A stretch of 53,275 bases of DNA from Lachnospiraceae bacterium (lineage in GTDB: Bacteria; Bacillota; Clostridia; Lachnospirales; Lachnospiraceae). Below are positions 1,557 to 47,104 of this stretch, one piece after another (positions within the stretch are counted from its first letter, which is position 1; each line of letters begins with the position of its first letter). Location: assembly GCA_017436865.1 (NCBI GenBank), contig JAFSCH010000093.1, positions 1 through 53,275 on the forward strand, given 5' to 3'. The notes under the pieces were generated by a model. The model searched no databases. It was not told where the DNA came from and was given only the letters and a program-made list of their open reading frames with translations. Position numbers and translations under genes: made by a program.

Positions 1557-1620
1557 TAGAAAGTAACATAGTTATCCCGACTTTTTCCCTTAACTTCCAT
1601 TACTTTTACCACTCAAAATC

Positions 1621-1664
1621 AAACCCCTACTGTGTTGCTATTCTAGAGCTGTTCAGTAGGGTTT
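1621..1664 (-). terminator. Hairpin after the IS passenger genes
   Basis: AAACCCCTACTG (1621-1632) pairs with CAGTAGGGTTT (1654-1664) apart from one bulged base. It lies six bases past the stop of the last IS ORF. On the minus strand it is followed by a moderately T-rich stretch, so it may end the IS transcript; it could also be part of the IS end. Confidence 0.5.
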
Positions 1665-1669
1665 ACTAT

Positions 1670-1888
1670 TTATCCAAACAAAAATTCATCCAAATCTTCA
1701 AGTGCTTCTCTCAGCTCTGGATTTCTTTCCTGATTTATATAACGCTCAAGTTGCAATGCTTCCCATTCCTCAGGCTCACATTCCATGTTGTAAGAAAGTT
1801 CAACAAGATCCCATAAGAATTGACTCTTTTTTGTTTTTCGATGAGTCATACAGTATTGTTCAATTAACATTCTTGAATATTCCTGCAT
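1670..1888 (-). CDS. IS passenger protein, 72 aa, acidic
   Basis: A small acidic protein with a helical N-terminal half (EYSRMLIEQYCMTHRKTKKS) and a glutamate-rich tail ending DLDEFLFG. No family is recognised. It starts directly after the stop of the 80-residue ORF, which implies translational coupling. Its fixed position behind the transposase suggests it belongs to the IS and may help transposition or its control, but the sequence does not show a function. Confidence 0.55.
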   Translation of the reverse strand: MQEYSRMLIEQYCMTHRKTKKSQFLWDLVELSYNMECEPEEWEALQLERYINQERNPELREALEDLDEFLFG

Positions 1889-2131
1889 TTATTCATCCTC
1901 ACTTTCATTAGTGCCTCTTATGAATGCCATGATTTCTTCATAAGAATGCTCGCTTTTAATAACTGCAGCCATGAGTTCATCCTTCCGCATTTCATTACGA
2001 AGCTTAATCAGTTCTGCAAGAGCTTCCTTTTCTGCTTCATATCTTATCTTGGCTTTCTCCATAACTGTTTTCTGTTGCTCTATCTTGGCATCAAGCAATT
2101 CTGTTGATGCTTTCTTTCTGCCTCGTGCCAT
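1889..2131 (-). CDS. IS passenger protein, 80 aa, coiled coil
   Basis: The first half is a basic N-terminus (MARGRKK) followed by an uninterrupted charged helix, about residues 12-52, with a coiled-coil pattern. The second half contains the segment SYEEIMAFIRG. The layout resembles small DUF4315-like proteins of conjugative elements, but identity is uncertain. It starts 13 bases after the transposase stop with a GGAGGGC ribosome site and runs directly into the 72-residue ORF. Probably an accessory gene of the IS. Confidence 0.55.
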   Translation of the reverse strand: MARGRKKASTELLDAKIEQQKTVMEKAKIRYEAEKEALAELIKLRNEMRKDELMAAVIKSEHSYEEIMAFIRGTNESEDE

Positions 2132-2144
2132 TGTAATGCCCTCC

Positions 2145-3866
2145 TTAAATCTTCATTTTATGTACTTTAGGATTCAGACAGTCGCTGATTTCCTTTGCTT
2201 TTCGTTTTATATAGTTGGCATCCATTCCAAATGCCTTTAGTATTAGCTTCTGGGTTGCTGTCACCGCATGGTCAAGTCTGTATACACCATCAGCCTGCCT
2301 TATCATCTCTATCTTTTCCAGTTCCCTAATGGCTGCCGGAACATTCATGTAATTAGGCTTCTCCATCATTTCTTCCTCTGCATCCTTAAGTTTTGTATAC
2401 ATTCGATTCCTGATGATAAGTGCCACAAAAGCTATCAGCATCTTTCCTTCCAATGCATCACCCGAATATACTCTTAAGCTGCGATTTCCAAGAAAACTCT
2501 TATCAGCCTTAAACAGTTTCTCTGAAGCATCTCTGCTCTTATACAATTCCAACGCTTCCTTAGCTGTCATCTTGGCAGAAGTAATGATGCAGAAATACCC
2601 ACACATCTCAAGTTCTGTCTCAACAATATCAGATTTTTCAATCGCACAGATAAAACACTGATCTTCATAGCCTTCATGAAAGTATTCAAGACTGTAATAC
2701 TTTTCATAACTCTTATCAACTATAACCTGTTGTCCTTCAAGTCTTTTCAGATACGCTGACATCTTGTCAAGCCTAGTCTCCAGAGCTGCCCGCTCTGAAG
2801 CAGCCTTTCCATAGCTATAGTAGATATGAAGATATCTGTTCTTCTCATCTGAGTAAAATACAGGAGTTTCAACAGTTATTCCATTTACCTGATATCTGCG
2901 GATTGTGTATTCTCTCTTGTCTTCAAAGCTTCCCTTTACCTTCCTGATTATTTCATTTGTGAAGGATTTCATACCCTTTACCATAATCGCAAAATCGTAT
3001 CCGCATTTATCCATGTATCTTATGTTTTCTCTGCTAAAGTATCCTCTGTCCAAAATAAATCCAGCATTCTTATATCCATAAGCCACAGCCTTATCAATCA
3101 TCATCTGAAGCTGCGATATGTCCACAATACTCCCCGGATATGTTTCATAGAAAAGTGGTTCTCTATTATTGATGTCATATGCTATAGAATAGTTTATTAT
3201 CGGAAGTCCTTTATCTTCCTTTGCATGTCCGAATTCTGCCAGTTCTATATCACCTGCCTGGCAATTCTTATTAGTGGAATCATAGGAAATATAAATTCTG
3301 TCCTTATGCTTTTTGATGGAGTTCCATTCATTCTGGAATTCAACGCTGTCATCCACAGTTATCTCGCTGGTAAATTTTGAGACAGCAGAGTCGCTGTATA
3401 TCTTATAGTTCGGCGTGAAAAGTGGATGGTTGTATGCATAGTCAGGATAATATTGACCGGTATTATTTTCTGTAATGATGTAATAAGATGCAAGATCAAG
3501 GAATAAGCCTGAACCACGATTGTCATTGTACATACCAGAAATAATCTTATCTACCATACTTTCCATCAACAGCTTTTCAATCACAAGAAATGAACCAATA
3601 CGTAAACAACTGCTCCTGTCATCGTGCCCTTTATCCTTAGGCAACTCTGCATCTGGAAAATATGTCAGGTAGTTTGGGTTAGGGTACATCATAGTTGAAT
3701 CATCTTCACAACGCTTACCTATAGTAGTGCGCTTGGGAATGTTGTATTTCTTATCTGGCTTGTAAACCCTGTCATACTCATAATTGATGTAGACCACACC
3801 TTTGATTGCCTTCTCATAAATCTTCCCTTTTTCATCTGGTATTTTTACTTTGAAATCATAATACAT
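2145..3866 (-). CDS. IS1634 family DDE transposase
   Basis: A 573-residue transposase. The catalytic triad can be placed: ISYDSTN for the first aspartate (about residue 215), FILDRGYFSRENIRYMDKCG for the second (about residue 273), and the YKSRDASEKLFKADK segment (Y-x2-R-x3-E-x6-K) for the glutamate (about residue 450). It continues into a helical region, ALIIRNRMY, typical of the C-terminus of IS4-superfamily enzymes. The reading frame is full length without interruptions, so the enzyme may be active. A ribosome site AAGGAG precedes the start. Confidence 0.85.
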   Translation of the reverse strand: MYYDFKVKIPDEKGKIYEKAIKGVVYINYEYDRVYKPDKKYNIPKRTTIGKRCEDDSTMMYPNPNYLTYFPDAELPKDKGHDDRSSCLRIGSFLVIEKLLMESMVDKIISGMYNDNRGSGLFLDLASYYIITENNTGQYYPDYAYNHPLFTPNYKIYSDSAVSKFTSEITVDDSVEFQNEWNSIKKHKDRIYISYDSTNKNCQAGDIELAEFGHAKEDKGLPIINYSIAYDINNREPLFYETYPGSIVDISQLQMMIDKAVAYGYKNAGFILDRGYFSRENIRYMDKCGYDFAIMVKGMKSFTNEIIRKVKGSFEDKREYTIRRYQVNGITVETPVFYSDEKNRYLHIYYSYGKAASERAALETRLDKMSAYLKRLEGQQVIVDKSYEKYYSLEYFHEGYEDQCFICAIEKSDIVETELEMCGYFCIITSAKMTAKEALELYKSRDASEKLFKADKSFLGNRSLRVYSGDALEGKMLIAFVALIIRNRMYTKLKDAEEEMMEKPNYMNVPAAIRELEKIEMIRQADGVYRLDHAVTATQKLILKAFGMDANYIKRKAKEISDCLNPKVHKMKI

Positions 3867-3989
3867 GAACCATTTATCTCCTTAGTTATAAGTATGTATA
3901 CCTACTCAATAATTGTAACAATAAAAGCCCGAAAAATCAACGGGTATTGCTGTTTTTCAGGCCTCTTACCATTATTATTCGATTGAGTC

Positions 3990-4187
3990 TTAAAACTTAC
4001 TGGAAGTTAAGAATCCACTCAAATTAGTATATATAGTAACTTGCTTAATTGTTGGCATACTGTCAAACATTTTTCCCAAGTTTCCTGATATAAAAGCAGA
4101 CACAATAATCATCATATTTGCCTGGGCTGACATCTGCACCAATTTCCCCATATGATTATGTTTTTCATTATTTGTGATTATCTGCAT
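3990..4187 (-). CDS. Hypothetical protein, 65 aa, last gene of the helicase operon
   Basis: It starts three bases after the MazG-like gene with GAGGAATAACAG before the ATG, so translation is plausible. The sequence MGKLVQMSAQANMMIIVSAFISGNLGKMF has a moderately hydrophobic centre, and the frame ends abruptly (GFLTSSKF). No family is recognised. The abrupt end about 30 bases from the IS right-side hairpin suggests a gene shortened when the IS or another rearrangement arrived, but a genuine small protein cannot be excluded. Confidence 0.4.
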   Translation of the reverse strand: MQIITNNEKHNHMGKLVQMSAQANMMIIVSAFISGNLGKMFDSMPTIKQVTIYTNLSGFLTSSKF

Positions 4188-4190
4188 CTG

Positions 4191-4493
4191 TTATTCCTCA
4201 TTTCCAATCCAGTAGATTTTGTCCTTAAATCCACCTCGTTTTTCTCTCTTGGATTCTTTCACTTGCAACAATTCTTCCACAGAATGGCCTCGTGCTTCAC
4301 ATACTGCAAACAGTACTTCAAGAATGTCCGCCATCTCTTCAATGGACTTGTCTGCCTGATACTCTGCTACTTCCTCATTCAACTTTTTGTCCAGTTCCTT
4401 CAAATAATCCTCATTTGATAATATTTCAATAATCGGTTTTTTACCATCATTTCTTATTATTTCCGGAATTCTATCTCTGACCAATTTCCCCAT
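4191..4493 (-). CDS. MazG-like nucleotide pyrophosphohydrolase (COG4997 type)
   Basis: A 100-residue all-helical protein that starts MGKLVRDRIPEIIRNDGKKP, the typical opening of the small COG4997 phosphoribosyl-ATP-pyrophosphohydrolase-like family. The metal-binding glutamates appear as KLNEEVAEYQ (about residues 37-46) and EEMADILEVLFAV (about residues 52-64). Members hydrolyse NTPs to NMP and pyrophosphate and are thought to clean or deplete nucleotide pools. The start ATG shares one base with the stop of the HNH nuclease gene (TAATG), so the two are translationally coupled. Confidence 0.85.
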   Translation of the reverse strand: MGKLVRDRIPEIIRNDGKKPIIEILSNEDYLKELDKKLNEEVAEYQADKSIEEMADILEVLFAVCEARGHSVEELLQVKESKREKRGGFKDKIYWIGNEE

Positions 4494-5506
4494 TATTGCA
4501 CCTCTTTCATTCTCTTAGGTTGCCATATAGCATCATAACCATTTATCTTCGCCCAATAGTAAACTGCTCGCAAGTTCTGCGCACTGTAAGTTCCCATATC
4601 CTTTGCTTTTTCATTTACTAAAATAATCTTCTTGTTTCTATCAAGTAACTTTTCTAAATAAATAATCGGAGCTAATTTGTCATTCTTTTGCAGATTACAT
4701 GTAGGACATGCAAGAACTAAATTCCACATCTTATCATCTTTAATAAAGGCTCTTGGAACAAAATGGTCAACATGCACCTTCTGTCCATCGTTAGATAGTT
4801 TCTTACCACAATAAAAGCAACTTTCATTTTCAAATTCTTCGAAGAGAATCCTTCGATAAATGGAGAGATTTTCTCTTTCAGAACTCTTATCAATTTTAGT
4901 AAGCAAATGATCCATTACCGAATCATCATTTATCTTCTCAAGGTACTTTGCCCATTCATAATAATTCAACTTTTCTATAGCCAGCTTATGCTTGCAAACA
5001 AATTGATACATCTGTGGATTGATTTGCAACCATTCTTCTTTTCGGGAAAACGAATAGAAAAGACCTTTTGTATCACCATATAAGGCGCCCACAACATTTA
5101 CCTTACATTTGCTCTTAATTTTCTTACAAACCTCAATCTTGGCCTCATCCGAAATACTCTCAAAGGGAATATCCGCAGTAATAGAATATCTTGCAGTCGT
5201 AGCATTTAATGCCTGTTCTAAATATGTACCGTTTGAGCGTTCACTTACCGGCTGTTGACGAATGCCATGCTTTAATACAAGATTCCAGTACACCTCTGTA
5301 AATGTTCCAAATAACTGGTCAAAGGTCAATGTCAAGTTTTCATCCACATTGTAAAGGTTGTCCATAATTGCTTTCAGAAAACCAAATTTATAACTACTGG
5401 AATTCTTGGAATGAGATGAAAACAGGTTACTAAATGCTGACCACATCTCATCATCCGACAATGTTCTGTTTTCATAGCGTCCTTCCGCAAGGTCATAACC
5501 TGCCAT
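4493..5506 (-). CDS. HNH endonuclease domain protein
   Basis: A 337-residue protein. The C-terminal third is an HNH zinc-finger nuclease: CFYC (230-233), VHVDHFVPRAF with the catalytic histidine pair (245-248), N262, and CPTC (267-270) followed by NLQKND. The first 220 residues have no recognised domain; they may bind a partner or substrate. The start at 5506 is chosen because GAGGAGAGGAAG lies just upstream; a longer frame to 5578 lacks this. It is flanked by the HTH gene 22 bases upstream and the MazG-like gene overlapping downstream, in an operon with two helicases. The setting suggests a defence or DNA-processing nuclease, which is inference. Confidence 0.85.
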   Translation of the reverse strand: MAGYDLAEGRYENRTLSDDEMWSAFSNLFSSHSKNSSSYKFGFLKAIMDNLYNVDENLTLTFDQLFGTFTEVYWNLVLKHGIRQQPVSERSNGTYLEQALNATTARYSITADIPFESISDEAKIEVCKKIKSKCKVNVVGALYGDTKGLFYSFSRKEEWLQINPQMYQFVCKHKLAIEKLNYYEWAKYLEKINDDSVMDHLLTKIDKSSERENLSIYRRILFEEFENESCFYCGKKLSNDGQKVHVDHFVPRAFIKDDKMWNLVLACPTCNLQKNDKLAPIIYLEKLLDRNKKIILVNEKAKDMGTYSAQNLRAVYYWAKINGYDAIWQPKRMKEVQ

Positions 5507-5528
5507 AACTTCCTCTCCTCTGATAGTA

Positions 5529-5708
5529 TTACTTTTCTTCTTTTCGAACTCGCCTCGGATCTTCTGGTTTCTTTGCATTTGAAGGTATCAACCAAGTCTT
5601 CCCTTTTATCATGGCTCCTTCCAATCGTCCTTCCTTGCAATAAATTCCTACTCTTCTCTGTGAAATCCCCCATTTTTTTGCGAATTCGGCTGTTGTTAAA
5701 TATTCCAT
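5529..5708 (-). CDS. Small excisionase-like HTH DNA-binding protein, 59 aa
   Basis: A single HTH domain (MEYLTTAEFAKKWGISQRRV) followed by a wing ending GKTWLIPSNAKKPEDPRR. The start at 5708 is supported by GGAGGA six bases upstream. The same domain makes up the first 55 or so residues of the Fic protein at 22145-23035, which shares AKKW, GKTW, IP.NA.KPE and the general spacing. Such domains occur in excisionases and in regulators of toxin modules. Here it lies between recQ and the HNH gene and may regulate the operon or guide one of its enzymes. Confidence 0.8.
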   Translation of the reverse strand: MEYLTTAEFAKKWGISQRRVGIYCKEGRLEGAMIKGKTWLIPSNAKKPEDPRRVRKEEK

Positions 5709-5782
5709 ACTATGTCCTCCAAAAATCAGCAACACTTATCTGATTACGTCCGTTTATTAGAACACTTTTATTCATCAATTAA

Positions 5783-8410
5783 CTATTCTTTTATTAACTT
5801 TAATTTTTTTAGTCTTGCCCTAATAGCCCCTGTTGTTCTTCCATGTATTTCTGACAAATCACGAGTACTAAACTGGCCGCTCTCGTACTCATTGGTTAAT
5901 TTTCTATCCTCTTCCTCTGTCCATGGCATATAGGCGCCTGCATGTTTTTCGCGTATTTCAGCAAACCAATCACTCTCAACTTTTTCCTCTTCTTCAAGTT
6001 CTTCCTCAGCAATCATTTCTCTCACGAATCTCTCTACCAACATCTGTTGAATAATCTGAGGATACATTAATACAGTGTAAGCATAGCCTTTTTCGCTGAC
6101 CTTTTCGATTACTTTAACGCCAAGTTTTATTCCCTTTTCAGTAGGCAGCTTATCAAATCTCCCGCCCACTTCTTTTTCCTCAATTACCTCCTCAGCTAAC
6201 AATTTTTCCATTAGTCTCGTTGCTGGAATTTTCTTTATATTATCTCTTCCACAAATGCGATTCATTTCATCACGTATATCAGAAATATATAAAAATTCTG
6301 AATATATAAAATTATCCGCTTCTTCCTGAAGAAGAAAGAACTCTTGCTTCCCAGCTTTTTTCTTTCTTTTCATTTTTACACCAGACTCAACGTACTGACT
6401 AATATCCTTTTTGTTCTGAACGATCTCTGGATATTCTCCTATACATTCTTCAATCAATACGAGAAAACGTTCACCATACTTAACAAATTTGTTCTCCCCT
6501 ACACCAGAAACGTTAAGCATCTCGCTCTTTGATGCAGGTACTTTTACTGCCATATCTATCAAAGTCTTATCACTGAAAATAATGTATGGAGGCATATTTT
6601 CTTCTCTGGCAATCTCAAGGCGAAGTTCTCTAAGTTTATCAAACAGTTTGAAACCTGCAGATGTAAGAGATTCCATACCTTTTGACTTTTTCTTTGTTTT
6701 TGTGTCCTTTTCAGGAAGCTTGTCTTCATCGTTAATTTTCACTAACACCTTTTTTTCCGGATTTTTCAGTCCAGTAATATCTCCTAGTTTAAGCACCTGA
6801 AAATCCCCTACCAAGAGATATCCTTCTAATACTAACTGTTCTATTAATCGTTTTAGCAGATTCTTATTGGTTGCCGCAAGCACACCATAGGATTTGTAAT
6901 CTACAGCACCTATATCTTCCAGCCTTGCCGTTTTTGCCCCAACAACCGTATCAATGATAATCCCCTTACCATACCTACCCTTGGCTTCATACACACAGTT
7001 AATAATCTTCTTTGCCGCATCAGTCATGTCTAAAGTTTCAAACTCTCTCTGACAATTACCGCAATCTTCGCAAGGCTTCTCCGGATTTTCTCCAAAGTAT
7101 TTCAAAATATAATTACGAAGACATTCTGTCGTGTAACAATATCTTTCCATGCTTTGCAAACGCTGTGTATCTCGTTCTTTGACAATCTCTCTATCAATCG
7201 AATCTAACTCCGCCGTTTCCTTATGGTCTATCAAGAATCGGTTAATGATAATATCCTGTGGCGAGAATAAAAGAATGCACTTGGCGTCCATTCCATCTCG
7301 ACCAGCTCTTCCTGCCTCCTGATAATAGTTTTCCATGCTCTGTGGCATATTATAATGAATAACAAATCTAACATTGGATTTATCTATTCCCATACCAAAA
7401 GCATTTGTTGCAACTACAATACTTGTATAATCAAACACAAAATCATCCTGCATTTTCTTTCTTTCGGCAGAACTCATTCCAGCATGATATTTTGCTACTG
7501 AAACGCCTTTACTCTTTAACAGTTCATAAAGACTGTCAACATTCTTCCTCGTGGCACAATAAACTATTCCACTCTCGTCAAGATGCTTCAATACATAATC
7601 AATAACATACTGTTCTTTGCTCTTTGGCTTATCTACCTGAAAAAATAGATTATCTCGATTGAAACCAGTTACTAAGACATATGGATTATTAAGTCCCAAA
7701 GTGCATACTATATCTTCTCTAACGTTTTCTGTTGCAGTAGCTGTAAATGCACTTAAAATTGGTCTCTTTTCCAGCATTTTTACAAACTCTACAATTTTCA
7801 TATAACTCGGACGAAAATCCTGTCCCCATTGAGAAATACAATGAGCCTCATCCACTGTCACCATCGAGATTTGCACGTCGCGCACCAACTCAAGAAATCC
7901 CTCAGTAACAAGACGTTCCGGAGCCACGTATATTATTTTATATAATCCCTGTCTTGCGTTTCTGACAGTCTCATAAAATGCACTTTCAGATAAGGAACTA
8001 TTAATAAATGCTGCCGAAACACCCGCTTCATTTAAAGCTTTTACTTGATCCTGCATAAGTGAAATAAGCGGTGAAATAACCAATGTTATACCTGACAACA
8101 TCATCGCAGGAATCTGATAACATACTGACTTTCCGGCACCTGTAGGCATAACTGCAAAAGCATCTCTTCCTGACAAGATGCTATCTATTACTTGCTTCTG
8201 GCCATCCCTAAAAGAATCGTAACCAAATAAGACCTTTAAAGTTTCTTCTGGCGTACGGTATCTTTCATCTTTCACTGCAGAACTTTCATAAAAGTTTACA
8301 TTCTCGTATACAAGCAAATCTTCTTTTTCTTCGAAATCTTCGGCCATATCGAAAAGACTAGTCCATAATGATTCTTCGTCCATAAAACCATCATCATAAT
8401 TATTACTCAT
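5783..8410 (-). CDS. recQ: RecQ family ATP-dependent DNA helicase
   Basis: An 875-residue 3'-5' helicase. Walker A is MPTGAGKS (88-95), the DEAH box lies in TVDEAHCISQWGQDFRPSY (about 185), and motif VI is YYQEAGRAGRDG. Then come the zinc-binding cysteines (CLRNYI...CEDCGNC), an RQC winged helix (about 430-530) and an HRDC domain (about 610-690). The extra C-terminus ends with a Myb-like segment, MPWTEEEDRKL...TTGAIRARLKKL, not found in standard RecQ. About 80 residues precede the helicase core. Start at 8410 is supported by GGTAGGTGG. It follows the UvrD-like gene by 26 bases. This is probably a specialised RecQ in an accessory operon rather than the housekeeping copy. Confidence 0.9.
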   Translation of the reverse strand: MSNNYDDGFMDEESLWTSLFDMAEDFEEKEDLLVYENVNFYESSAVKDERYRTPEETLKVLFGYDSFRDGQKQVIDSILSGRDAFAVMPTGAGKSVCYQIPAMMLSGITLVISPLISLMQDQVKALNEAGVSAAFINSSLSESAFYETVRNARQGLYKIIYVAPERLVTEGFLELVRDVQISMVTVDEAHCISQWGQDFRPSYMKIVEFVKMLEKRPILSAFTATATENVREDIVCTLGLNNPYVLVTGFNRDNLFFQVDKPKSKEQYVIDYVLKHLDESGIVYCATRKNVDSLYELLKSKGVSVAKYHAGMSSAERKKMQDDFVFDYTSIVVATNAFGMGIDKSNVRFVIHYNMPQSMENYYQEAGRAGRDGMDAKCILLFSPQDIIINRFLIDHKETAELDSIDREIVKERDTQRLQSMERYCYTTECLRNYILKYFGENPEKPCEDCGNCQREFETLDMTDAAKKIINCVYEAKGRYGKGIIIDTVVGAKTARLEDIGAVDYKSYGVLAATNKNLLKRLIEQLVLEGYLLVGDFQVLKLGDITGLKNPEKKVLVKINDEDKLPEKDTKTKKKSKGMESLTSAGFKLFDKLRELRLEIAREENMPPYIIFSDKTLIDMAVKVPASKSEMLNVSGVGENKFVKYGERFLVLIEECIGEYPEIVQNKKDISQYVESGVKMKRKKKAGKQEFFLLQEEADNFIYSEFLYISDIRDEMNRICGRDNIKKIPATRLMEKLLAEEVIEEKEVGGRFDKLPTEKGIKLGVKVIEKVSEKGYAYTVLMYPQIIQQMLVERFVREMIAEEELEEEEKVESDWFAEIREKHAGAYMPWTEEEDRKLTNEYESGQFSTRDLSEIHGRTTGAIRARLKKLKLIKE

Positions 8411-8436
8411 TGTAACCACCTACCAATACTTCTTTT

Positions 8437-11400
8437 TTACTCTTCCGAATCCTCATCTTCAAAAATTTCTCTGTTTGGATCTTCCAAGTACTTTTTAAAA
8501 TCCTTTATCTGTTTCTTCGTAATACATTCATCAAAATGATTTCCATTATACGTTGGATGAAGAACCGGATACTTTGCCTTGGTCTTAAGCATATAGTGAT
8601 TATTAATCAACCATTGAACAACAGCTCGCATATCGTCTCTACTCACATCCGCATAAATTCCATACTCTGGAACTTCATTTAACTTATGCTTTACAATCTG
8701 TTTCCTATTGCCTCCACGTAAAACACTGATAAGAATCATGATTCCAAAATAGTAATTCTCACTAATGTGTCCCAAACAATTAATAGTATTTCTCGCTAGC
8801 TCCATCAAATCCTTCCCTTTGAAACTCATATCATTCAAATCATTGGTTTCCATGACCTCTGTTTTTTCAGGAACTGCTATCTGTGTATTTTTATCTTTTG
8901 CCAAAATAATAGTTCTCGCAACAAACTGTTCAGGTTTTACTTCCGGAATATTTGTCACCTTAGGTTTTTGCATTGATTTTTGTGTAGGCATTCCTCTTTC
9001 TTCAACCGGAACAACAGTCACTGCTGAGACAAATGGTTCAGCAAAATCAGGTTCAATATTCTTTAGTGTAAGGTATTCATTTGTACCAATAGTATTATTG
9101 CACCCTGTCTTATCATTCTTATAATTCGTACATCCTAAGAAATATCCATTTCCTGCGCTCTTTGCTATCAAATATCCATCCCGGCATTTATCGCACTTCA
9201 TTATCACCAATTTGCCTGCTTTAATATCATTAGTCATAAAGCCACACATTTCTTGGTCATTTGTGCACATATATAATTTCAAACCATAGGCATTCTTATA
9301 TCTGAACTGCAACGGATACCCGCAAATAGGACATACTTTTCTTGTCGAGTTCTGTTTTATTTCCTCCTCATTCCACTTTCCATTAAGAACAACACTCTTA
9401 TAATCATGTTTTATCTCAAGCAGAAATTCTGAAGGGTTTTGTTCCGGAGCAATGAAATATACTCTATTCTTTGTTCTAGTCATTGCAACATAAAACAGTC
9501 TTCTCTCCTCTGCATAATCAATAGAATTATCTCCCTTGATTACAAACGACAGAACTGGATCATCTTCTATCTTTGAAGGAAAGCCGTAAGTTTCATTCTT
9601 TCCATTCACAACAATAACATTGTCATAACCAAGTCCTTTTGCCATATGTACTGTCATAAACGTAATATCTAATTGCGGATACTTTACTGATTTTATTTTG
9701 CTTCCTCTAGTCTTATATTCAAATAAACCAGAACGTTCTAAGTAATCCCCATCAAAACCATATCTTCCCAATAAGAGGATTGAACCAGCATCTTTCTTTC
9801 CAGCCTGACGACTATACTCCATTATCTGATTAAGAGCTGTCTCAACTGCATTTGCAGTCGCATACAACGCTCCACTTCTTCTATCACCGCCTCTTTGCTT
9901 GTATGAACTATCATATGTATAAATAATTACAGGATCATCTATATTCTTTGGTGAAATAAGCTGCTTCTCAATTTGAGTAGGATTCTTTTGAATAAAATTG
10001 CCCGCTATGTCAATTACATCTTGTGCATTTCTATATGTGCGTACGATTTTTAAGAGTTTTGCATATCCCATCTTCTCTTGAAATTTAGTGAACAATGAAA
10101 TATCCGAACCACTGAAAGCATATATTGACTGCCAATCATCTCCAACAGCTATTATTTTTCCATCACAAACCTCTGAAATAGCTGTAGTCAAATCAAAACG
10201 CTGTCTAGAAATATCCTGGTACTCATCCACAATAATATATTTGAAATGAAGCTTCTCCTTCATTTCCTTAACTTGACGAAGTACCCGCGCCGATTCGTTT
10301 ATCATATCCTCAAAATCAACAGCACTGTTTTCTTTTAAATATCTCTGATACTCTAAGTAGCAATCTTGACAAATATTCAAGAATAATCTTGATCTGACAT
10401 TTGTTGTAGAATGATACATTCTGTCAAACTCATCAACATCGAATCCATTTGTTTTAAAATTCGTGATGAATCTACAAATAAGGTTAACTAGCTTTCGGAC
10501 ATATCTTGACTCCTCTGAGGCAATAAGTTTATCCATAACTTCCTTATTTGATCTTGGTGTTAATTCAAAACCTGCAGCTTCCAATTTTTCCTGCAGATGT
10601 TTCAGCAAACTCCTCTTATCATTGAACTCTGAAAAAGTATAAATCAAAGTGGTTCCATGCTCTCTATGGAGCTTCACTTTATTATTTACACTATGCTTAT
10701 ACCTTACCAATTCTTCCTCTGTAAATCGGCTATTTTTTCCATCCTCAGTAACACCAAAATGTTCAATATAAGCTACCTTATCTCCTTGTCTAATAATAAA
10801 ATCCGGCGTATATGGTTTTCTCGAAAATGTAATATTATATGGATAGATTGGTTCATACTCATAATCAATATTGTTCAGATACAAGAAGTTAGCTATCTGC
10901 ACTTCCTGATAAGATTTCAATACTTCATTCTGAATAGTCACCTTCTTCTTTGTTCTGGCATCTACTACTTCACGTCTAAACTCGTCCAATTCACTTCGCA
11001 TAGTCGTATAGTTTGCCTTCGCAGTTTTATTGAAGAACTCATTCAAATCAGCCCCTTCATAAGGAGCTTCAAAATATGAGGCAAAGAACATAATGAGGTT
11101 GTTTACCAAAACCTCATTTGTAAGAATTGATTGTTTAAAATAATCCTGTAAAAGAAAATATAACTTAGAGCCATCAAATATATTTAATGGTTCTGGATCA
11201 TTTATTCTTAAAATTGCATTACCAGTTGAGTGGAACGTCGCAATAGGACAATCTATATGAAGATCCTTATTTATCTTTTCACGAAGCTCACCTACCGCTT
11301 TATTCGTAAAAGAAATAACCAATATATCTCTTGGCTCTATTCCTTTCTTTTCAACCAAATATTTAACTTTAGCAGCAACTGTAGTTGTTTTGCCAGCTCC

Positions 11401-11868
11401 AGCTCCAGCAATTACGAGACAGTAATCCTCATCTGTTAAAATTACCTTTCTTTGGTCTTCATCAAGCACAATAACTGGGTCAACATCTTTTAGAATATTA
11501 TCGAGATATTCTTTCTCTGATAACATTTGATTCTTTATATATTCATCATTTGCAGCATCAACCCTCTCCCCAAGGTGGTCATACAAATCAATAATCCTTA
11601 AGACCTCTCCTTCTAAAATTCCATTTTGAGCGCAATAGTTTTTCAGCATCTTGCTATTCTGCAAAACCCTGAAATATTCAACAATATCTTTATACACAGG
11701 TATTATTTCTGCATACTCACTTCTAGCCACATAATGATTACCTTTTAGCAACGCATTTATCTCATCCTGTAATTTATAGATTCTTATGCATTCTGAGCTT
11801 GGTTCTGGCTTTATCTTTTTTCGTCCCAGTTTTTCGCCAAAGCTCATTACTCGCGAAAAAAAGTCCAT
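8437..11868 (-). CDS. UvrD/helicase IV-like helicase with nuclease-like insert, zinc ribbons and RQC domain
   Basis: A 1143-residue protein. Walker A is GAGAGKTT (154-161), Walker B IIVDEYQDISRQRF (545-558), then GDDWQSIYAFSGSD (576-589), and the UvrD C-terminal motifs VHMAKGLGYDNVIVV and RRLFYVAMTRTKNRV. An insert at about 320-415 has YTPDFII and AYIEHFGV, the layout of the PD-(D/E)xK-like fold reported in helicase IV. After the core are two zinc ribbons (CPICG...CTNDQEMC and CDKC...CTNY...C). The end of the protein (about 1040-1125) resembles an RQC domain. It heads the operon with recQ and the HNH gene. The ribosome site before 11868 is weak. Confidence 0.88.
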   Translation of the reverse strand: MDFFSRVMSFGEKLGRKKIKPEPSSECIRIYKLQDEINALLKGNHYVARSEYAEIIPVYKDIVEYFRVLQNSKMLKNYCAQNGILEGEVLRIIDLYDHLGERVDAANDEYIKNQMLSEKEYLDNILKDVDPVIVLDEDQRKVILTDEDYCLVIAGAGAGKTTTVAAKVKYLVEKKGIEPRDILVISFTNKAVGELREKINKDLHIDCPIATFHSTGNAILRINDPEPLNIFDGSKLYFLLQDYFKQSILTNEVLVNNLIMFFASYFEAPYEGADLNEFFNKTAKANYTTMRSELDEFRREVVDARTKKKVTIQNEVLKSYQEVQIANFLYLNNIDYEYEPIYPYNITFSRKPYTPDFIIRQGDKVAYIEHFGVTEDGKNSRFTEEELVRYKHSVNNKVKLHREHGTTLIYTFSEFNDKRSLLKHLQEKLEAAGFELTPRSNKEVMDKLIASEESRYVRKLVNLICRFITNFKTNGFDVDEFDRMYHSTTNVRSRLFLNICQDCYLEYQRYLKENSAVDFEDMINESARVLRQVKEMKEKLHFKYIIVDEYQDISRQRFDLTTAISEVCDGKIIAVGDDWQSIYAFSGSDISLFTKFQEKMGYAKLLKIVRTYRNAQDVIDIAGNFIQKNPTQIEKQLISPKNIDDPVIIYTYDSSYKQRGGDRRSGALYATANAVETALNQIMEYSRQAGKKDAGSILLLGRYGFDGDYLERSGLFEYKTRGSKIKSVKYPQLDITFMTVHMAKGLGYDNVIVVNGKNETYGFPSKIEDDPVLSFVIKGDNSIDYAEERRLFYVAMTRTKNRVYFIAPEQNPSEFLLEIKHDYKSVVLNGKWNEEEIKQNSTRKVCPICGYPLQFRYKNAYGLKLYMCTNDQEMCGFMTNDIKAGKLVIMKCDKCRDGYLIAKSAGNGYFLGCTNYKNDKTGCNNTIGTNEYLTLKNIEPDFAEPFVSAVTVVPVEERGMPTQKSMQKPKVTNIPEVKPEQFVARTIILAKDKNTQIAVPEKTEVMETNDLNDMSFKGKDLMELARNTINCLGHISENYYFGIMILISVLRGGNRKQIVKHKLNEVPEYGIYADVSRDDMRAVVQWLINNHYMLKTKAKYPVLHPTYNGNHFDECITKKQIKDFKKYLEDPNREIFEDEDSEE

Positions 11869-12180: not shown

Positions 12181-12743
12181 CTATTTTTTCCTTCCTCTTT
12201 CCACTTGCCTATCAATCGTCATCCGATGAATGCTTGGAACATCTGCAAGCACACCTTCCTTGATAATCTTTCCAAGGTTTATCGGTGTATATCCACATAC
12301 ATTCGCCGCCAAATTAATGTGTTTACATCCCTCTTTGTATGGTTCCATATGATTATGGTCGTGACCATGTATATTCAGACACCATGGCGATCCGTACACA
12401 GGTTCATGTGATAACAATATTTTCTCTGCTATAAATAGCGGACCTGTATAGATTTCATCAAAGTAATTCTTATATGCACCTTTTGCGTCATGATTCCCGA
12501 GAATCAGAATCTTTTTTTCGCCTTGATGTCTTTGAGATACTCCGGGCTTCCAACGTCTCCCAAGCAGATAAATGTATCATTTTTCATTACAATCCTATTG
12601 ATGATCTCAATCTGCTCCTGTGGAGTAATCCAATCCGGACTCATAAACTTGCAATCTGCATCATCAAAATGCAAATCCGATAATATGTAAACAGAGCCCT
12701 TCTCTGACCAATGACGGAATGGTTCGTATAGTGTTGGTATCAT
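12181..12743 (-). pseudogene. Calcineurin-like metallophosphoesterase broken by a one-base frameshift
   Basis: The two halves of a metallophosphoesterase lie in different frames. The first half has SDLHFDDAD and CLGDVG; the second, read in its own frame, has ILILGNHDAKG and then NIHGHDHNH. Together these give the metal-binding set D-x-H, GD, GNHD, and GHxH. The frame changes in a run of seven A on the coding strand (plus-strand T run 12512-12518); one more A restores a single frame of 187 residues. AAAGGAAT precedes the start. This may be a real inactivation, a phase-variable tract, or a sequencing error in a homopolymer. Confidence 0.82.
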
Positions 12744-13172: not shown

Positions 13173-14402
13173 TCACTGTAACACTTCATTAGCTAAATGC
13201 TCGACAACAGACCTTGGATTAAATATCTCTTTTTCTCCCAAAGAATAGCCTCCATCCCACTCAAGAAATTCCCCATATTTTTCCGTAGCGCCATAATAAT
13301 CTATCATTGTTTGTACTTCCTCTTGAGAAAACCCAAAGTGCTCACTGTAACGATTATCCAAAATAGAATTTTCTATTATATTATTAAGCCCGGTCAGTTC
13401 TTTCCATCTTGCAATACTCATAACTCCACTCAAAAATCCATAAGCCAAGTGCAGATTATCCTTTAATCCACCGGAAAGTAATATATCCATAAAACTAACC
13501 ACTTTATCATAATATCCATGAGCACACCCCATCAGAAGCGGAGCATCATATTCATCTATTATAACAACCGGAGCTACTCCATAATCCAACCGCAGCATAT
13601 GTGAAAGATTTAAAAAGGCACACGATACATCTACAACACTTGCATTCCCATTCAACATTTTCTCCATGTATTCCTTTTGATAAGATATTATTTTTTCACT
13701 TTGAAGCAGTTTCTTATGTCTTTCAAATTCTCCTCGTATTATTTTGTAAATCAGTTCATATGACCTTTCCCACGTTTCGCCTCTCACATTTGCAAAAGAC
13801 ATATAAATAACCGGATATTTTCCTTGGTACTCTTGATATTCCTTTCCACACTTCCATATTTTCTTATCTCTGAAATAAACAGATGTATCCCCCTCTGTCC
13901 TTTCAAAGAACACTCGTAACATATCCATATTTAATGACTTGCCAAATCCTGATGGTCGAGTAAACAATAACACCAATGGACGCTCATCTATAAAATCTCG
14001 TATCAGCAATGTTTTATCCACGTAATAATATTCACTTGAAATCTTGCGATAATCTGTTATTCCATTTGGCACCGGCAGTTTCCTATCTGCCTTTCTTCTT
14101 TTTGCTCGCTTTCGTTCTATGATATTCTGTTCCCAAAACAGAGCCTTTCCTTCTTCGTCCACAGCAATTCCATCCAAATCACTATCTAATCCCAATACAG
14201 ACAACACCGCGGCATATGCTCCTAGTGACACTGTAGCTATTCCACGCTCTATTGCATAGAATGTGCTTTCTCCTATGCCAGCTTTCCCAGAAATTGTTTC
14301 AGCACTGATATTCCTACGTAACCTTGCCTTCTTTATACGATGCCCCAATTTCTTTAATTTATCTTCTGTATTAGGTTCCAAAATCACAGTTTTTCTAGAC
14401 AT
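13173..14402 (-). CDS. HipB-like HTH fused to a truncated AAA-ATPase-like protein
   Basis: Residues 1-105 are an Xre-type HTH of the kind that partners HipA kinases: KLGHRIKKARLRRNISAETI, then IERGIATVSLGAYAAVLSVLG. Residues 115 to the end match AAA-ATPase_like (PF09820) proteins: YYYVDKTLLIRDFI, Walker A FTRPSGFGKSLNMDMLRVFF, and Walker B VVIIDEYDAPL. Family members normally run past 500 residues and end in a PD-(D/E)xK-like domain; this one stops at 409 without it. Start at 14402 has AGAGGTTAGCAC. The fusion is unusual: an antitoxin-type repressor domain joined to an NTPase. Truncation may mean decay. Confidence 0.75.
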   Translation of the reverse strand: MSRKTVILEPNTEDKLKKLGHRIKKARLRRNISAETISGKAGIGESTFYAIERGIATVSLGAYAAVLSVLGLDSDLDGIAVDEEGKALFWEQNIIERKRAKRRKADRKLPVPNGITDYRKISSEYYYVDKTLLIRDFIDERPLVLLFTRPSGFGKSLNMDMLRVFFERTEGDTSVYFRDKKIWKCGKEYQEYQGKYPVIYMSFANVRGETWERSYELIYKIIRGEFERHKKLLQSEKIISYQKEYMEKMLNGNASVVDVSCAFLNLSHMLRLDYGVAPVVIIDEYDAPLLMGCAHGYYDKVVSFMDILLSGGLKDNLHLAYGFLSGVMSIARWKELTGLNNIIENSILDNRYSEHFGFSQEEVQTMIDYYGATEKYGEFLEWDGGYSLGEKEIFNPRSVVEHLANEVLQ

Positions 14403-15219: not shown

Positions 15220-16035
15220 CTACTGCCAATTTCTCTTTAATATCTCACTCTTCAAGTACAATGTATTCTTGTCAGATGTTTTGAGCGGATGCAGTTTACC
15301 TCGTTTTGTCAAATCAATAATATTTTGTCTTGAACACCCAAGCAGCTCCGCTGCTTCCGTTGCATTGATTACTCTATGTGTGACAAAATTCCGAAAATCC
15401 GCTACGGTAAGCGGAACATTCTTTCCCATACGATATAGCACAGAATCCGAAACACTCATATTCACATCCCATGCCACACCATATCCACCGGTTTGCATTT
15501 GAACATGTTCAAAATATTCCGGTTTCTTAAGCAAGATTTGAAAACCTTTTGTCTTCTCAAAATGTTTCTTCAAATCACATTTCTTGATAATTCCATCTCT
15601 AAAAAACACAAGCAAGCAATAATCATCCAAAGGAAGCACATCTTCAATTCTGGTGGCAAATCGTTTTCTGATTTCTTCCGGGAGATCCTTTTCATCCATT
15701 GGGACAAGGTAATAATCGTCTTGAGCGCATCTTCCCATCGCTAACGTCAGAAGCTCATATTCATCGTATTCCTCCAACTGATTATCACGCAGAATCTCTC
15801 CAATATTCTGTCGGTCTGTGGGAATAATACGTTGCTGGACCCATACTTTGCTCCAATAGGAGTTTATGGTAGTTTCGTTTTGTTTTACAAAAGAATCCAA
15901 CAGCAAAGGAGTTTCCCATGGGTCTGCTCCCTCAGGCAATTCGATATAAAATCTCTTTTCAAGCTCATAATAAAGAAGGTACGCCAAGTCTTTCTGCACA
16001 TCGGCAGCTTCATCACGAATTGCAAAAATCTTCAT
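15220..16035 (-). CDS. DUF2442 domain protein with C-terminal HTH, partner of HipA-like kinase
   Basis: A 271-residue protein in three parts. Residues 1-130 are unassigned. Residues about 135-205 match DUF2442 (VLPLDDYCLLVFFRDG...GYGVAWDVNMSVSDSVLY). Residues about 220-271 are an excisionase-like HTH (INATEAAELLGCSRQNIIDL, then LKSEILKRNW). The start at 16035 has AAAGGTGG upstream and lies inside the end of the kinase gene, so the pair is translationally coupled. The HTH suggests it binds the two operators in front of the kinase and represses the pair, as HipB does for HipA. That role is inference. Confidence 0.75.
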   Translation of the reverse strand: MKIFAIRDEAADVQKDLAYLLYYELEKRFYIELPEGADPWETPLLLDSFVKQNETTINSYWSKVWVQQRIIPTDRQNIGEILRDNQLEEYDEYELLTLAMGRCAQDDYYLVPMDEKDLPEEIRKRFATRIEDVLPLDDYCLLVFFRDGIIKKCDLKKHFEKTKGFQILLKKPEYFEHVQMQTGGYGVAWDVNMSVSDSVLYRMGKNVPLTVADFRNFVTHRVINATEAAELLGCSRQNIIDLTKRGKLHPLKTSDKNTLYLKSEILKRNWQ

Positions 16036-16834
16036 ACGCACACCACCTTTTCCAAATCATTTCCCATATTTTGTCTTGAAGTACTTCGGATATAATGCCA
16101 TCAAGTCCTTCCATTATCCTCTCTCTATCAGTTTCACACAAAGGATTTAGCATAGGCCTTTTATCTGCAGGTATCAATTTCAAATTCTCCCATGTAGACT
16201 TTGACCCAATATAATTATTACAAGGTTTATCTTCCATTACATCGAATGCCTCTATCTGAGTATCATTCATACAGCGACAAAGCAGTGAAAGTCCATGATC
16301 AAACAACGGTGCCATACGAAAAGTTTTCTTTCGGCTATTACGTAACACTTCAATATTGGCACCATGACGGTCACGATTGAGAATCAGATAATCCACTACG
16401 AGCATCTGATAAATATAATCTTCCCACCCCTTGCGCACGCAAAAATCAAGGGCAGATTCCGCCTCATATTCTTCTCTTTCCTTATATGCATCCAGCGCAA
16501 TTTTGGACTCACCTTTTTCCTTAAAATCATCAGAGGCGCAAAGGTATACATCTCTAATTTTCCCATCCACTATGATATCTGCATGGATAAGCTGATATGA
16601 CAAATGCGGAATCCCTAATATTGTAAGCAACCTATCAACAATCAATTCATTTACACATTCATGACCGATTACGCCCTGCACTTTATCAAAATTCGAAAGC
16701 TTATAGTAAACTTTTCTGCCTCCTAATTCCGAATACGATTTCAAAAAGGAACCTGCTGTTCCTGATGAATTACGATATACCGACCAGGACAAATAAGTGA
16801 GGTCCTGTTTTTCTCTTATCAACTGTATATTCAT
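16013..16834 (-). CDS. HipA-like protein kinase, 273 aa
   Basis: The C-terminal kinase motifs of HipA are visible: VVDYLILNRDRHGANIEVL (147-165) with the catalytic N-R-D-x-H-x-x-N, and MAPLFDHGLSLL (174-185) with the metal-binding aspartate. Length is much below full HipA (about 440), matching the shorter HipA-like proteins common in Clostridia. HipA enzymes phosphorylate targets such as glutamyl-tRNA synthetase; the target here is unknown. Gene order is kinase first, HTH partner second, the reverse of hipBA. The ribosome site GGAGG precedes the start at 16834. A promoter with two palindromic operators lies just upstream. Confidence 0.8.
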   Translation of the reverse strand: MNIQLIREKQDLTYLSWSVYRNSSGTAGSFLKSYSELGGRKVYYKLSNFDKVQGVIGHECVNELIVDRLLTILGIPHLSYQLIHADIIVDGKIRDVYLCASDDFKEKGESKIALDAYKEREEYEAESALDFCVRKGWEDYIYQMLVVDYLILNRDRHGANIEVLRNSRKKTFRMAPLFDHGLSLLCRCMNDTQIEAFDVMEDKPCNNYIGSKSTWENLKLIPADKRPMLNPLCETDRERIMEGLDGIISEVLQDKIWEMIWKRWCAYEDFCNS

Positions 16835-18298: not shown

Positions 18299-19084
18299 TT
18301 ATGCAGCACCAATATACTTATCAATATTGTAATGCGCTACTGGCATCTTAAATGGTACCTGAATTATTTTTTCAAAAAATTTACGACTCTTTCTTTCATC
18401 TAAATTATTCTTATATTTTTCCTTAATCCCCTGAGAAACCACTTCGTAATCAATCGCCAATACAAATACACACTTCTCACAGTCTAAGAATATTTTCAAT
18501 ACTTCCAACAATTCCACTGCTCGTAAAGGTTGCAAACGATCTAAATCATCTATATAGAATACAATTCTTTTTCCTCCGTCTGCCTGAGAAATCTCATTCA
18601 CAGTTTTCTGAAACGTATCCTTCAATTCTTGAATTATATCAACTGCATTTTTTTCTAGCTTATCACTAATCACATCATTTACTACGCTAATTCCTAACAT
18701 TTTTTCACTTTGTTCTCCAACAGCTTTTATTGCTATCTTACCAAGCCCTGTTACTAAATTAAGAAATTCCCCCACTGACCATCGTCCATCTTTGCACAAT
18801 GCTTGGGACAAATAATTAAGGAATACAATAGGAAGATCATCTCCCATAGTAAATTGTGAAAATTGCCACGTATTAAACCAAACAGAAATCACCTCTTCCC
18901 CAAGATTATTCTTTACCATATTCATAACACTTGTTTTACCACTGCCCCAATCTCCTTGAATAGCAATTGTCATTGGCGTTTCACATTCTTTAATAAACTC
19001 ACTCAACCCCGTTATATATTGCGTTATATCAAATTGATCCTGCGAAATATTTTCAATAGCTTCATCTTTCCACCCAAATCCCAT
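18299..19084 (-). CDS. KAP family P-loop NTPase, truncated
   Basis: A 261-residue N-terminal part of a KAP NTPase. Walker A is IQGDWGSGKTSVMNMV (about residues 43-58) and Walker B is IVFYIDDLDRLQPLRAVELL (about 173-192); FVLAIDYEVV follows as in the family. Complete KAP proteins usually run to 500 residues or more, with further helices after the conserved RKFFEKIIQVPFKMP; here the frame stops 15 residues later. KAP NTPases are membrane-associated and some belong to anti-phage systems. Probably non-functional. The start has AAGGAG ten bases upstream. Confidence 0.8.
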   Translation of the reverse strand: MGFGWKDEAIENISQDQFDITQYITGLSEFIKECETPMTIAIQGDWGSGKTSVMNMVKNNLGEEVISVWFNTWQFSQFTMGDDLPIVFLNYLSQALCKDGRWSVGEFLNLVTGLGKIAIKAVGEQSEKMLGISVVNDVISDKLEKNAVDIIQELKDTFQKTVNEISQADGGKRIVFYIDDLDRLQPLRAVELLEVLKIFLDCEKCVFVLAIDYEVVSQGIKEKYKNNLDERKSRKFFEKIIQVPFKMPVAHYNIDKYIGAA

Positions 19085-19145: not shown

Positions 19146-19547
19146 CTATATAACCGTCTTAATTTTATCAATTAATGTAATATCTGCTGGCAACCATTCA
19201 ACTGAATCAAGTTCCTCTTTCGTTAACCACTTTGCAGCTTCATGTTCCTTAAGCACCAGATTACCCGAAACAATCTCTGCCCAAAAGCAATCCATAGACA
19301 GATGAAAAGTTGGATAATCATACTCGATCGTATCAATCAATTCACCTACATTAATTTCTGTCTCCAATTCTTCCATTATCTCACGCTTAAGTGCCTCTTG
19401 AGGTGTTTCACCATCTTCAATCTTTCCTCCTGGGAATTCCCAACCTCCTTTTAGGTCACCATAGCCCCTTTGAGTCGCAAAAATAATTGTCTCTCCGTGC
19501 TCATTCACTGCCTTGGTTATAGCTGCTACTACTCTAATTGTTTTCAT
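19146..19547 (-). CDS. NUDIX hydrolase, MutT-like (d)NTP pyrophosphohydrolase
   Basis: A 133-residue protein with a full Nudix box: WEFPGGKIEDGETPQEALKR followed by EIMEELETEI. The GGWEFPGG opening and the downstream WLTKEELDSVEWLPAD region match 8-oxo-dGTP diphosphatase-like enzymes, which remove damaged nucleotides. The start overlaps the stop of the DUF3427 helicase by the four bases ATGA, so the two were one operon. The helicase is now broken while this frame is intact; it may still be expressed. Confidence 0.88.
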   Translation of the reverse strand: MKTIRVVAAITKAVNEHGETIIFATQRGYGDLKGGWEFPGGKIEDGETPQEALKREIMEELETEINVGELIDTIEYDYPTFHLSMDCFWAEIVSGNLVLKEHEAAKWLTKEELDSVEWLPADITLIDKIKTVI

Positions 19548-22144: not shown

Positions 22145-23035
22145 TCAATAAGCAATCCTAAAGTAATCCAAATACGCTTTATATTTATCCTGTGCTGTCA
22201 GACAGGTATCTGTCAAATACCCTTTTTCATTGTTCCATTCTTTCAATCCTCGGTAATAGAACATCTTTAGATTATCCTCTATGATGAACGGAACAATATT
22301 ATATTTCAGACATTCCTTAAACATAATCAATCTTCCCACACGACCATTACCGTCCTGAAACGGATGGATTCGCTCAAATTTCACATGGAAGTCCAGAATA
22401 TCCTCAAAGTTTTTTTCTTGTTTTCCATTGTACTCTGTCAGCAGAGCTTTCATCTTATCGGAAACTTCTTCCGGAAGTGCAGTATCCATGCCGCCAACTT
22501 CATTCGGCATTTTTTTATACTCACCAACAGCAAACCAATCTTTTCTAGAATCACTGGTTCCATTCTTCAAAATAAGATGAAGTTCCTTGATAAACTTTTC
22601 TGTCAGTGTTACTTTTGCATTATCAATAATCATATCAATACAACGGAAGTGATTTGCTGTTTCTATCACATCATCCACATTGAGCACTTCTTTTTCTACA
22701 CCGATGGTGTTAGTTTCAAAAATATATCTTGTCTGATCGTGAGTCAGACGGCTGCCTTCCATATGATTGGAATTGTATGTTAAATCAATTTGTGTCTTAT
22801 GATAAATACCACCAGAATACTTGCTTGCTTTCTGCTCCTGCAAAATATCCAGCAAAGTAACAGGCTGTTCCTTCTTCTTGTTAGAACGCTCCGGTTTTTC
22901 TGCATTTTCAGGAATATTCCAAGTCTTACCAACGAGGGATGCCCCCAGCACTCGTCCCTGCGCACAGTAGTTTCTGACACTGCGCTCTGAAACATTCCAT
23001 TTTTTTGCTATTTCAGTAACTGAAAGGTATCGCAT
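22145..23035 (-). CDS. Fic domain protein with N-terminal HTH
   Basis: A 296-residue protein. Residues 1-55 are an excisionase-like HTH (MRYLSVTEIAKKWNVSERSV, then VGKTWNIPENAEKPE). Residues about 90 to 290 are a Fic domain: an inhibitory-helix motif SNHMEG (the S/T-x3-E-G/N pattern) before the core, and the catalytic motif HPFQDGNGRVGR (about 222-233). All catalytic residues are present. Fic enzymes transfer AMP or similar groups to proteins; the target is unknown. Having the inhibitory helix in the same chain suggests self-control (class II). Start at 23035 has GGAGGAGAGCAG. The HTH is the same type as the small protein at 5529-5708. Confidence 0.88.
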   Translation of the reverse strand: MRYLSVTEIAKKWNVSERSVRNYCAQGRVLGASLVGKTWNIPENAEKPERSNKKKEQPVTLLDILQEQKASKYSGGIYHKTQIDLTYNSNHMEGSRLTHDQTRYIFETNTIGVEKEVLNVDDVIETANHFRCIDMIIDNAKVTLTEKFIKELHLILKNGTSDSRKDWFAVGEYKKMPNEVGGMDTALPEEVSDKMKALLTEYNGKQEKNFEDILDFHVKFERIHPFQDGNGRVGRLIMFKECLKYNIVPFIIEDNLKMFYYRGLKEWNNEKGYLTDTCLTAQDKYKAYLDYFRIAY

Positions 23036-23198
23036 CTGCTCTCCTCCGTTATAAATCAAATCTAAATTTACACTTTACTACGTTATAGTATATAGCATTA
23101 TCGGCAAAATATCAAACTTTTATCATGGCATTTATTTTTATTTTGCCGTTATGCCAACTACCGCAACATGTCCTATCAGTATATTATCAATATTATAC

Positions 23199-47070: not shown

Positions 47071-47104
47071 AATACTTGCCACCTCTTTGTCATCATCAAT
47101 ATTC

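Follow-up and report, generated by a model that had tools for sequence, protein, structure and literature searches.

Some of the closest described systems to the locus considered here involve HNH nucleases. Dnd neighbourhoods, in the available part of PMC10853773, hold diverse nucleases, HNH proteins among them. The SBD-HNH endonucleases, such as EcoWI and SprMcrA, place an N-terminal domain ahead of a C-terminal HNH domain. MazG-type domains appear, in the accessible sections of PMC13092281, among defence genes that are predicted and lack experimental validation. A literature search, with most subscription papers and all preprints outside its reach, found no paper on DUF3427 with HNH and MazG, or on DUF2075 with MazG. 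The locus is a six-gene operon on contig JAFSCH010000093.1 of a Lachnospiraceae bacterium (assembly GCA_017436865.1), whose 53,275 nucleotides were analysed whole and are called the window below. It encodes a UvrD-type helicase, a RecQ helicase, a small helix-turn-helix (HTH) protein, an HNH protein, a MazG-like enzyme, and a 65-residue product. The set may be a composite anti-phage operon whose modules move separately, a reading given an even chance of being correct. Its firmest piece, judged by sequence comparison, appears to be one small mobile cassette comprising the HNH and MazG-like genes, joined in some relatives by the HTH gene. The HNH-MazG pair recurs next to enzymes directed against chemically modified DNA and is probably an uncatalogued antiviral component.

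All six genes lie on the minus strand, from 11868 down to 3990: UvrD (11868-8437; 1143 residues); RecQ (8419-5783 from a GTG start or 8410-5783 from an ATG; 878 or 875 residues); HTH (5708-5529; 59 residues); HNH (5506-4493; 337 residues); the MazG-like gene (4493-4191; 100 residues); and a gene stub (4187-3990; 65 residues). Recomputed from these open reading frame (ORF) coordinates, with the RecQ ATG at 8410, the successive gaps are 26, 74, 22, -1, and 3 bases, just as an earlier note on this DNA had given them; the MazG-like ORF and the HNH stop codon share one base. This tight spacing and shared direction are one reason for reading the set as a composite operon. The domain names in that note (UvrD with RQC, RecQ, HTH, and HNH) also hold up against Pfam and NCBIfam. 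The top promoter-like site, at 11968-11940, matches 11 of 12, and promoter-like sites are no commoner than in shuffled sequences (26 versus 32.0). No terminator-like site was found on the minus strand between 3900 and 12500.

Four relatives (L066, L067, L068, and L069) share with the window a block of DNA comprising the HNH and MazG-like genes, and the similarity ends on both sides of it, at 4185-4194 and 5506-5519; in L099 and L074 it covers the HNH gene alone. A search of 250 genomes from the family with the MazG-like protein found 14 matches, spread over 13 of the genomes, and ten of these matches adjoin an HNH gene, which belongs to the window's HNH family in the window itself and in genome G221, and to a second HNH family in the other eight. 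The small HTH protein matches HTH_17 (Pfam, 2.3e-6), and the window's order HTH-HNH-MazG is found again in L176 and L177. In L068 an HTH relative instead follows the HNH-MazG pair, 0.8 kb from HNH, and in L174 it precedes an SLFN helicase. In L067 an McrBC component (PF10117, 5.1e-51) comes directly after the pair, together with an AAA_5 protein. Among the 27 plasmid records with MazG-family relatives, two neighbourhoods were opened; that of a Lysinibacillus plasmid has DUF2075, MazG, and HNH genes in succession. The shared DNA block, the ten adjacencies, and the recurrent gene order form a second reason for a composite built from modules.

The MazG-like protein itself, with two of its relatives, gave no Pfam match above the cut-off. 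For the 12 of 27 plasmid records listed, identity is 43-49%, and 11 of these 12 are annotated as nucleoside triphosphate pyrophosphohydrolase. The protein also carries the pattern EExxE...ExxD, which we take to be a MazG-type motif. It is named here, from the annotated relatives and this motif, as a predicted nucleoside triphosphate pyrophosphohydrolase.

The HNH protein begins with an unannotated N-terminal domain (approximately residues 1-222), followed by a Cas9-like HNH domain. Pfam recognizes the latter as HNH_4 (1.3e-11), and a profile of the family matches Cas9 HNH chains (best 2.5e-12). Residues D247, H248, and N271 are near-invariant among 50 aligned members, so that a predicted HNH fold with its catalytic Asp, His, and Asn is present. 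(The alignment, A3, was made by dropping 13 of 59 candidate rows, L106 for its stops and 12 others for size, and adding four second-family HNH proteins; alignment A5 holds 41 of its 50 rows.) The N-terminal part of these 50 members gave only chance-level Pfam matches among the 25 listed of 43 families, and a Protein Data Bank (PDB) sequence search with its profile gave one match, also at chance level (E 0.71). Relatives at E 1e-55 or better occur in seven of the 250 family genomes, this one included. More broadly, the genome collection yielded 79 HNH loci, from Bacillota, Spirochaetota, Mycoplasmatota, Pseudomonadota, and a Riflebacteria metagenome-assembled genome.

The second HNH family is homologous to the first (hhalign probability 99.3%, E 4.5e-20, over 298 columns), and its members measure 377-387 residues in the eight loci beside MazG. 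In the hhalign alignment these proteins (L172-L178 and L180) have apparently lost the first family's zinc-binding cysteines while keeping the VDHF core. Five other loci (L129, L133, L137, L138, and L142) match by tblastn only over approximately residues 1-232: they retain the N-terminal domain with no recognizable HNH part, and lie in clusters with PbeA- or DndD-like genes, PbeA not being in view in L137. The HNH gene was also considered as a phage gene, a reading rejected on finding no match at 1e-10 in the phages collection and no confirmed relative in a pattern-limited scan of viral_contigs.

What surrounds the HNH relatives was counted with profiles, within 6 kb of the 79 loci and in 20 control stretches (398 kb), the controls being taken from contigs already matched for other queries and the screening profiles being built from the same loci; genes in relatives were called by a longest-ORF script. 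Several partners recur near HNH and occur in none of the controls: DndD-like ATPase (17/79); SauUSI-type helicase (15); NUDIX (13); a second kind of MazG, cysteine desulfurase, and DndB (10 each); SLFN/DUF2075 helicase (9); PbeA and DndC (8 each); the window's own MazG family and a macro domain (6 each); and the window's HTH (3). A NUDIX or MazG-type gene is present at 25 of the loci and a screened helicase at 31. Scanned for names, representatives matched mREase_IV (9.8e-220), PbeA (1.7e-245), an SLFN-g3 helicase with GIY-YIG, NUDIX (PDC-S07), the MazG-like family PF12643 for the second MazG kind, and methyltransferase PF13649. (PF02182 was found in none of 196 genomes and none of 14 control genomes, and hence is uninformative.) One Dnd-like cluster, at L034, contains a PAPS reductase and a class V aminotransferase. 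Around the eight second-family HNH loci, the counts are four each for SLFN helicase and the second MazG kind, and three each for SauUSI-type helicase, NUDIX, and HTH. The company of SauUSI-type, DndD-like, PbeA, SLFN, and NUDIX genes, along with McrBC in L067, argues for an anti-phage function of the composite.

A further partner is a small class I methyltransferase (PF13649), found near 27 of the 79 HNH loci and in three of the 20 controls; at 20 of the 27 it lies within 120 bp of HNH on the same strand. An example is L075 10998-11582, and in L083 it appears, by eye, fused to NUDIX. The control is not clean, because one stretch (L207) lies on a contig with a weak HNH match and holds a second-family HNH gene adjoining a small methyltransferase; the second HNH family scores 0/79 near HNH versus 1/20. 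The window's MazG family (six loci) and the methyltransferase (27 loci) never co-occur, which could also be due to chance.

The UvrD protein is a UvrD/Rep-type superfamily 1 helicase (UvrD-helicase, Pfam 7.2e-51) with a C-terminal RQC domain (Pfam 7e-14). Nested within the helicase, at residues ~275-445, is an insert with a putative PD-(D/E)XK-type nuclease domain. Chains of T7 endonuclease I are matched by its profile (2pfj, E 6.7e-4), and all 15 of the 15 proteins aligned have residues E322, D356, and E369. The family has a phenylalanine aligned with a lysine of the wild-type endonuclease I chain, so nuclease activity of the insert is only inferred. Relatives at E 1e-60 or better occur in 14 of the 250 family genomes, this one included; at E 1e-200 or better there are seven from 344 genomes of the order, counting this one and another already known.

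Thirteen near relatives of UvrD (56-67% identity) were compared; for L060, whose gene has an internal stop near the start, the open part alone was used. RecQ lies directly downstream of UvrD in three of them (L054, L060, and L219). Cytosine methylation genes also occur close by. The prophage-like IMG/VR contig L234 (93-8646) carries a UvrD-family relative (64-67%) with two C-5 cytosine methylases, and reads as restriction-like cargo. In L218 a C-5 cytosine methylase lies near a UvrD relative, and UvrD, second-family HNH, MazG, and SLFN helicase genes form a single same-strand stretch. In L219 longest-ORF calling hid a methyltransferase ORF, which the profile recovered. The UvrD-RecQ adjacency and the nearby methylases give further reason for the composite reading.

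The RecQ protein has HRDC and RQC domains and a C-terminal extension. It scores above the cut-off of the NCBIfam recQ model TIGR01389 (707.7 versus 640.2 bits). Because a second recQ above the cut-off lies elsewhere in the genome, at C124, the operon RecQ is an accessory copy.

Intact catalytic positions, the defence island upstream, and the patchy spread of the HNH family complete the case for a composite anti-phage operon. A series of observations weighs against it. A second locus with all six genes was found at none of the 79 HNH loci and near none of the 13 near UvrD relatives, and the operon is for this reason a patchwork. The earlier note had looked to conserved co-occurrence of HNH with UvrD-RQC, and this was not supported: UvrD lies near HNH at four of 79 loci and in one of 20 controls, no clear enrichment, so the HNH-UvrD link was dropped as the key one. 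Two of the four cases are strong (L134, 70 bp upstream of HNH; L131, same-strand and 3 kb upstream) and two lesser (L069, on the other strand; L091, weak). RecQ likewise shows no clear enrichment near HNH (5/79 versus 0/20; strong in L066 and in L083, there in two ORFs), and it passes the ordinary recQ model. UvrD has no adjoining RecQ in ten of its 13 near relatives, one of which (L052) is on a contig that ends after 0.5 kb. Four of the 14 MazG-family matches (a pair in G112 and single ones in G092 and G055) have no HNH gene in view, all on contigs shorter than 11 kb, and on the other opened plasmid, from Priestia, no HNH gene lies within 5 kb of the MazG relative. Finally, none of the partners screened for is present at 15 of the 79 HNH loci. 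What is conserved are sub-modules: HNH with MazG (and the small HTH in some), and UvrD with RecQ in three of 13. As a candidate defence system, then, the locus stands in part: its island, its intact helicase and nuclease domains, and the restriction and phosphorothioate genes beside HNH relatives agree with that proposal, but not as a single conserved six-gene system.

The strongest rival accepts the modules but denies their joint action. The locus would be a defence hot spot, in which UvrD and RecQ merely share a transcript with HNH and MazG (and HTH). This is a real possibility, though at less than even chances. Beyond the edges of HNH-MazG the DNA is no longer similar to that of relatives, and the neighbours vary among the four closest relatives; the phosphoesterase gene directly preceding HNH in L067 sits upstream of UvrD in the window. 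On the HNH tree, partner classes require at least 25 changes (presence alone requires 12 for SauUSI, five for UvrD, four for RecQ, and three for the window's MazG), the tree, the product of a rapid search, having long branches and covering 76 of 80 rows, those of 250 residues or more. Against mere juxtaposition, the genes across the modules are 22-74 bases apart or, in one case, overlap, and UvrD recurs beside HNH elsewhere: directly before it in L134, 3 kb before it in L131, and on the same strand as second-family HNH-MazG in L218. Improbable is a function in DNA repair and nucleotide sanitation, with helicases repairing forks, the MazG-like enzyme cleaning the nucleotide pool, and defence incidental: RecQ does pass the ordinary model, and NUDIX and MazG-like enzymes are house-cleaners, but the spread is patchy (7/250 family genomes for HNH and 14/250 for UvrD, each count including this genome), the genome has another recQ, and the recurrent HNH partners are restriction and phosphorothioate genes.

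The composite reading suggests a division of labour among the parts that sequence comparison delineates: the apparent HNH-MazG cassette; the UvrD-nuclease-RQC and RecQ pair, seen in some relatives; and a stub cut by an insertion sequence. Incoming DNA would be unwound or travelled along by UvrD and RecQ, and may be cut by the nuclease nested in UvrD. Its unannotated N-terminal domain would select the DNA that the HNH protein nicks or cuts. The MazG-like enzyme would hydrolyse nucleoside triphosphates, perhaps to starve phage replication, or perhaps to keep modified nucleotides out of host DNA. In relatives, HNH or HNH with MazG would serve beside modification-directed restriction (SauUSI-type, McrBC, or Dnd/PbeA); here they stand behind UvrD and RecQ.

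A bolder proposal, speculative and rather unlikely as it stands, is that HNH and MazG (with HTH) form an uncatalogued mobile add-on. The HNH protein would cut DNA by way of a new N-terminal domain, and MazG would clear the modified nucleotides freed from, or needed for, phage DNA. The host could thereby run a modification-directed nuclease with its own genome left unmarked; NUDIX, the second MazG kind, and the small methyltransferase would partner the same nuclease family in the same role. The tight, repeated pairing of MazG with a nuclease beside modification-reading restriction offers a two- or three-gene unit for testing nucleotide hydrolysis in restriction. The unit of interest is smaller and more modular than six genes, and UvrD, with the nuclease nested in it, offers another lead in its own right.

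The operon ends at an insertion sequence of ~2.4 kb (1589-4011, minus strand), bounded by 19-nt terminal inverted repeats (84%; 1589-1607 and 3993-4011). It encodes a DDE transposase (3866-2145, minus strand; DDE_Tnp_1, 8.6e-13) and two small ORFs, and related copies or pieces occur elsewhere in the genome. The final codons of the 65-residue ORF lie inside the insertion sequence, whose end is at 4011. The ORF listed in the earlier note as a small protein does exist, but it is, on this sequence evidence, a truncated gene whose end was supplied by the insertion sequence, and not a complete one. Its single other relative in the 250 family genomes (G112) matches residues 1-60. The idea that it begins a SauUSI-type helicase was rejected, its best alignment to a neighbour covering 19 residues (E 1.6).

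A defence island lies upstream, with SauUSI-like pieces (DUF3427 among them), NUDIX, KAP, and Fic genes, and weak matches to PDC-M03; that note had called the region rich in toxin, Fic, KAP, and DUF3427 genes. The broken SauUSI-like type IV restriction gene (19544-21988, minus strand) consists of a helicase ORF (20252-21829), a DUF3427 part in a separate ORF (19544-20164), and only a short N-terminal piece (21853-21933). An open NUDIX gene (PDC-S07; 19146-19547) comes after these pieces. The KAP NTPase ORF (18299-19084, minus strand; 261 residues) looks truncated and has small fragments in later frames. A 409-residue protein with HTH and AAA-ATPase_like (PF09820) domains (13173-14402, minus strand) has no PADLOC match. 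Upstream of UvrD are the pieces of a phosphoesterase-like gene (12181-12743, minus strand), which share 93% DNA identity with a whole 190-residue gene (Metallophos) found in L067 directly before HNH-MazG.

HTH_17 occurs in three places on the minus strand: alone before HNH (5529-5708); at the C-terminus of a PDC-M03B-like protein (15220-16041); and at the N-terminus of the Fic protein (22145-23059). The Fic protein's HTH is 57% identical to the operon's 59-residue protein; HTH_17 is possibly a shared regulator of the island. Farther away, at 46067-47585 (minus strand), the ORF list splits what by eye resemble carA (two ORFs) and a short purF-like piece. With 169 contigs and 7.68% contamination in this genome, such splits may be assembly errors.

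No catalogued system fits the six-gene operon, in line with the earlier note's failure to recognize the set: strong PADLOC matches are only to generic helicase models, and HNH matches the Cas9 and PtuB models weakly. Over the domains they share, UvrD resembles GajB models of Gabija (best 1.8e-43), as does HNH the PtuB models of Septu (best 9.9e-8); membership was rejected, with neither GajA nor PtuA among the PADLOC matches listed for the six proteins, up to 25 matches each for three of them. RecQ matches the PADLOC DpdF model at 9.9e-195, but reaches 208.8 bits against an NCBIfam DpdF cut-off of 550, and no other Dpd gene lies in the operon. UvrD matches RTasHel of DRT at 1.1e-49, and the operon has no reverse transcriptase. 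Dpd and DRT were likewise rejected as homes for the operon.

Other resemblances are to systems that act on modified DNA. Like the SBD-HNH endonucleases, the window's HNH protein joins an N-terminal domain to a C-terminal HNH domain. Its N-terminal profile matched no solved SBD in the PDB; a loose, by-eye likeness to the SBD motif printed in the available pages of PMC7461809 is a lead only. Those pages place dnd genes near fewer than 3.6% of SBD-HNH enzymes, within four genes; a Dnd-type gene lies at 21 of the 79 loci of the window's HNH family, within 6 kb, a different yardstick. The HNH proteins in the accessible part of PMC10853773 consist of wHTH, SRA, and HNH domains, and such domains were not found in the window's HNH family; the words 'MazG', 'DUF3427', and 'UvrD' are absent from what is available of its main text. 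The six operon proteins include no DndCDE or PbeABCD gene product, giving generic helicase matches only, but HNH relatives elsewhere lie directly after DndA-like genes, or beside PbeA and DndD-like ATPases. Similarly, the SauUSI domain set (PLD, superfamily 2 helicase, and DUF3427) is absent from the six proteins, but the SauUSI-type type IV system (PADLOC mREase_IV, with NUDIX PDC-S07) is a recurrent neighbour of HNH, and a broken copy of it stands 8 kb upstream of this operon.

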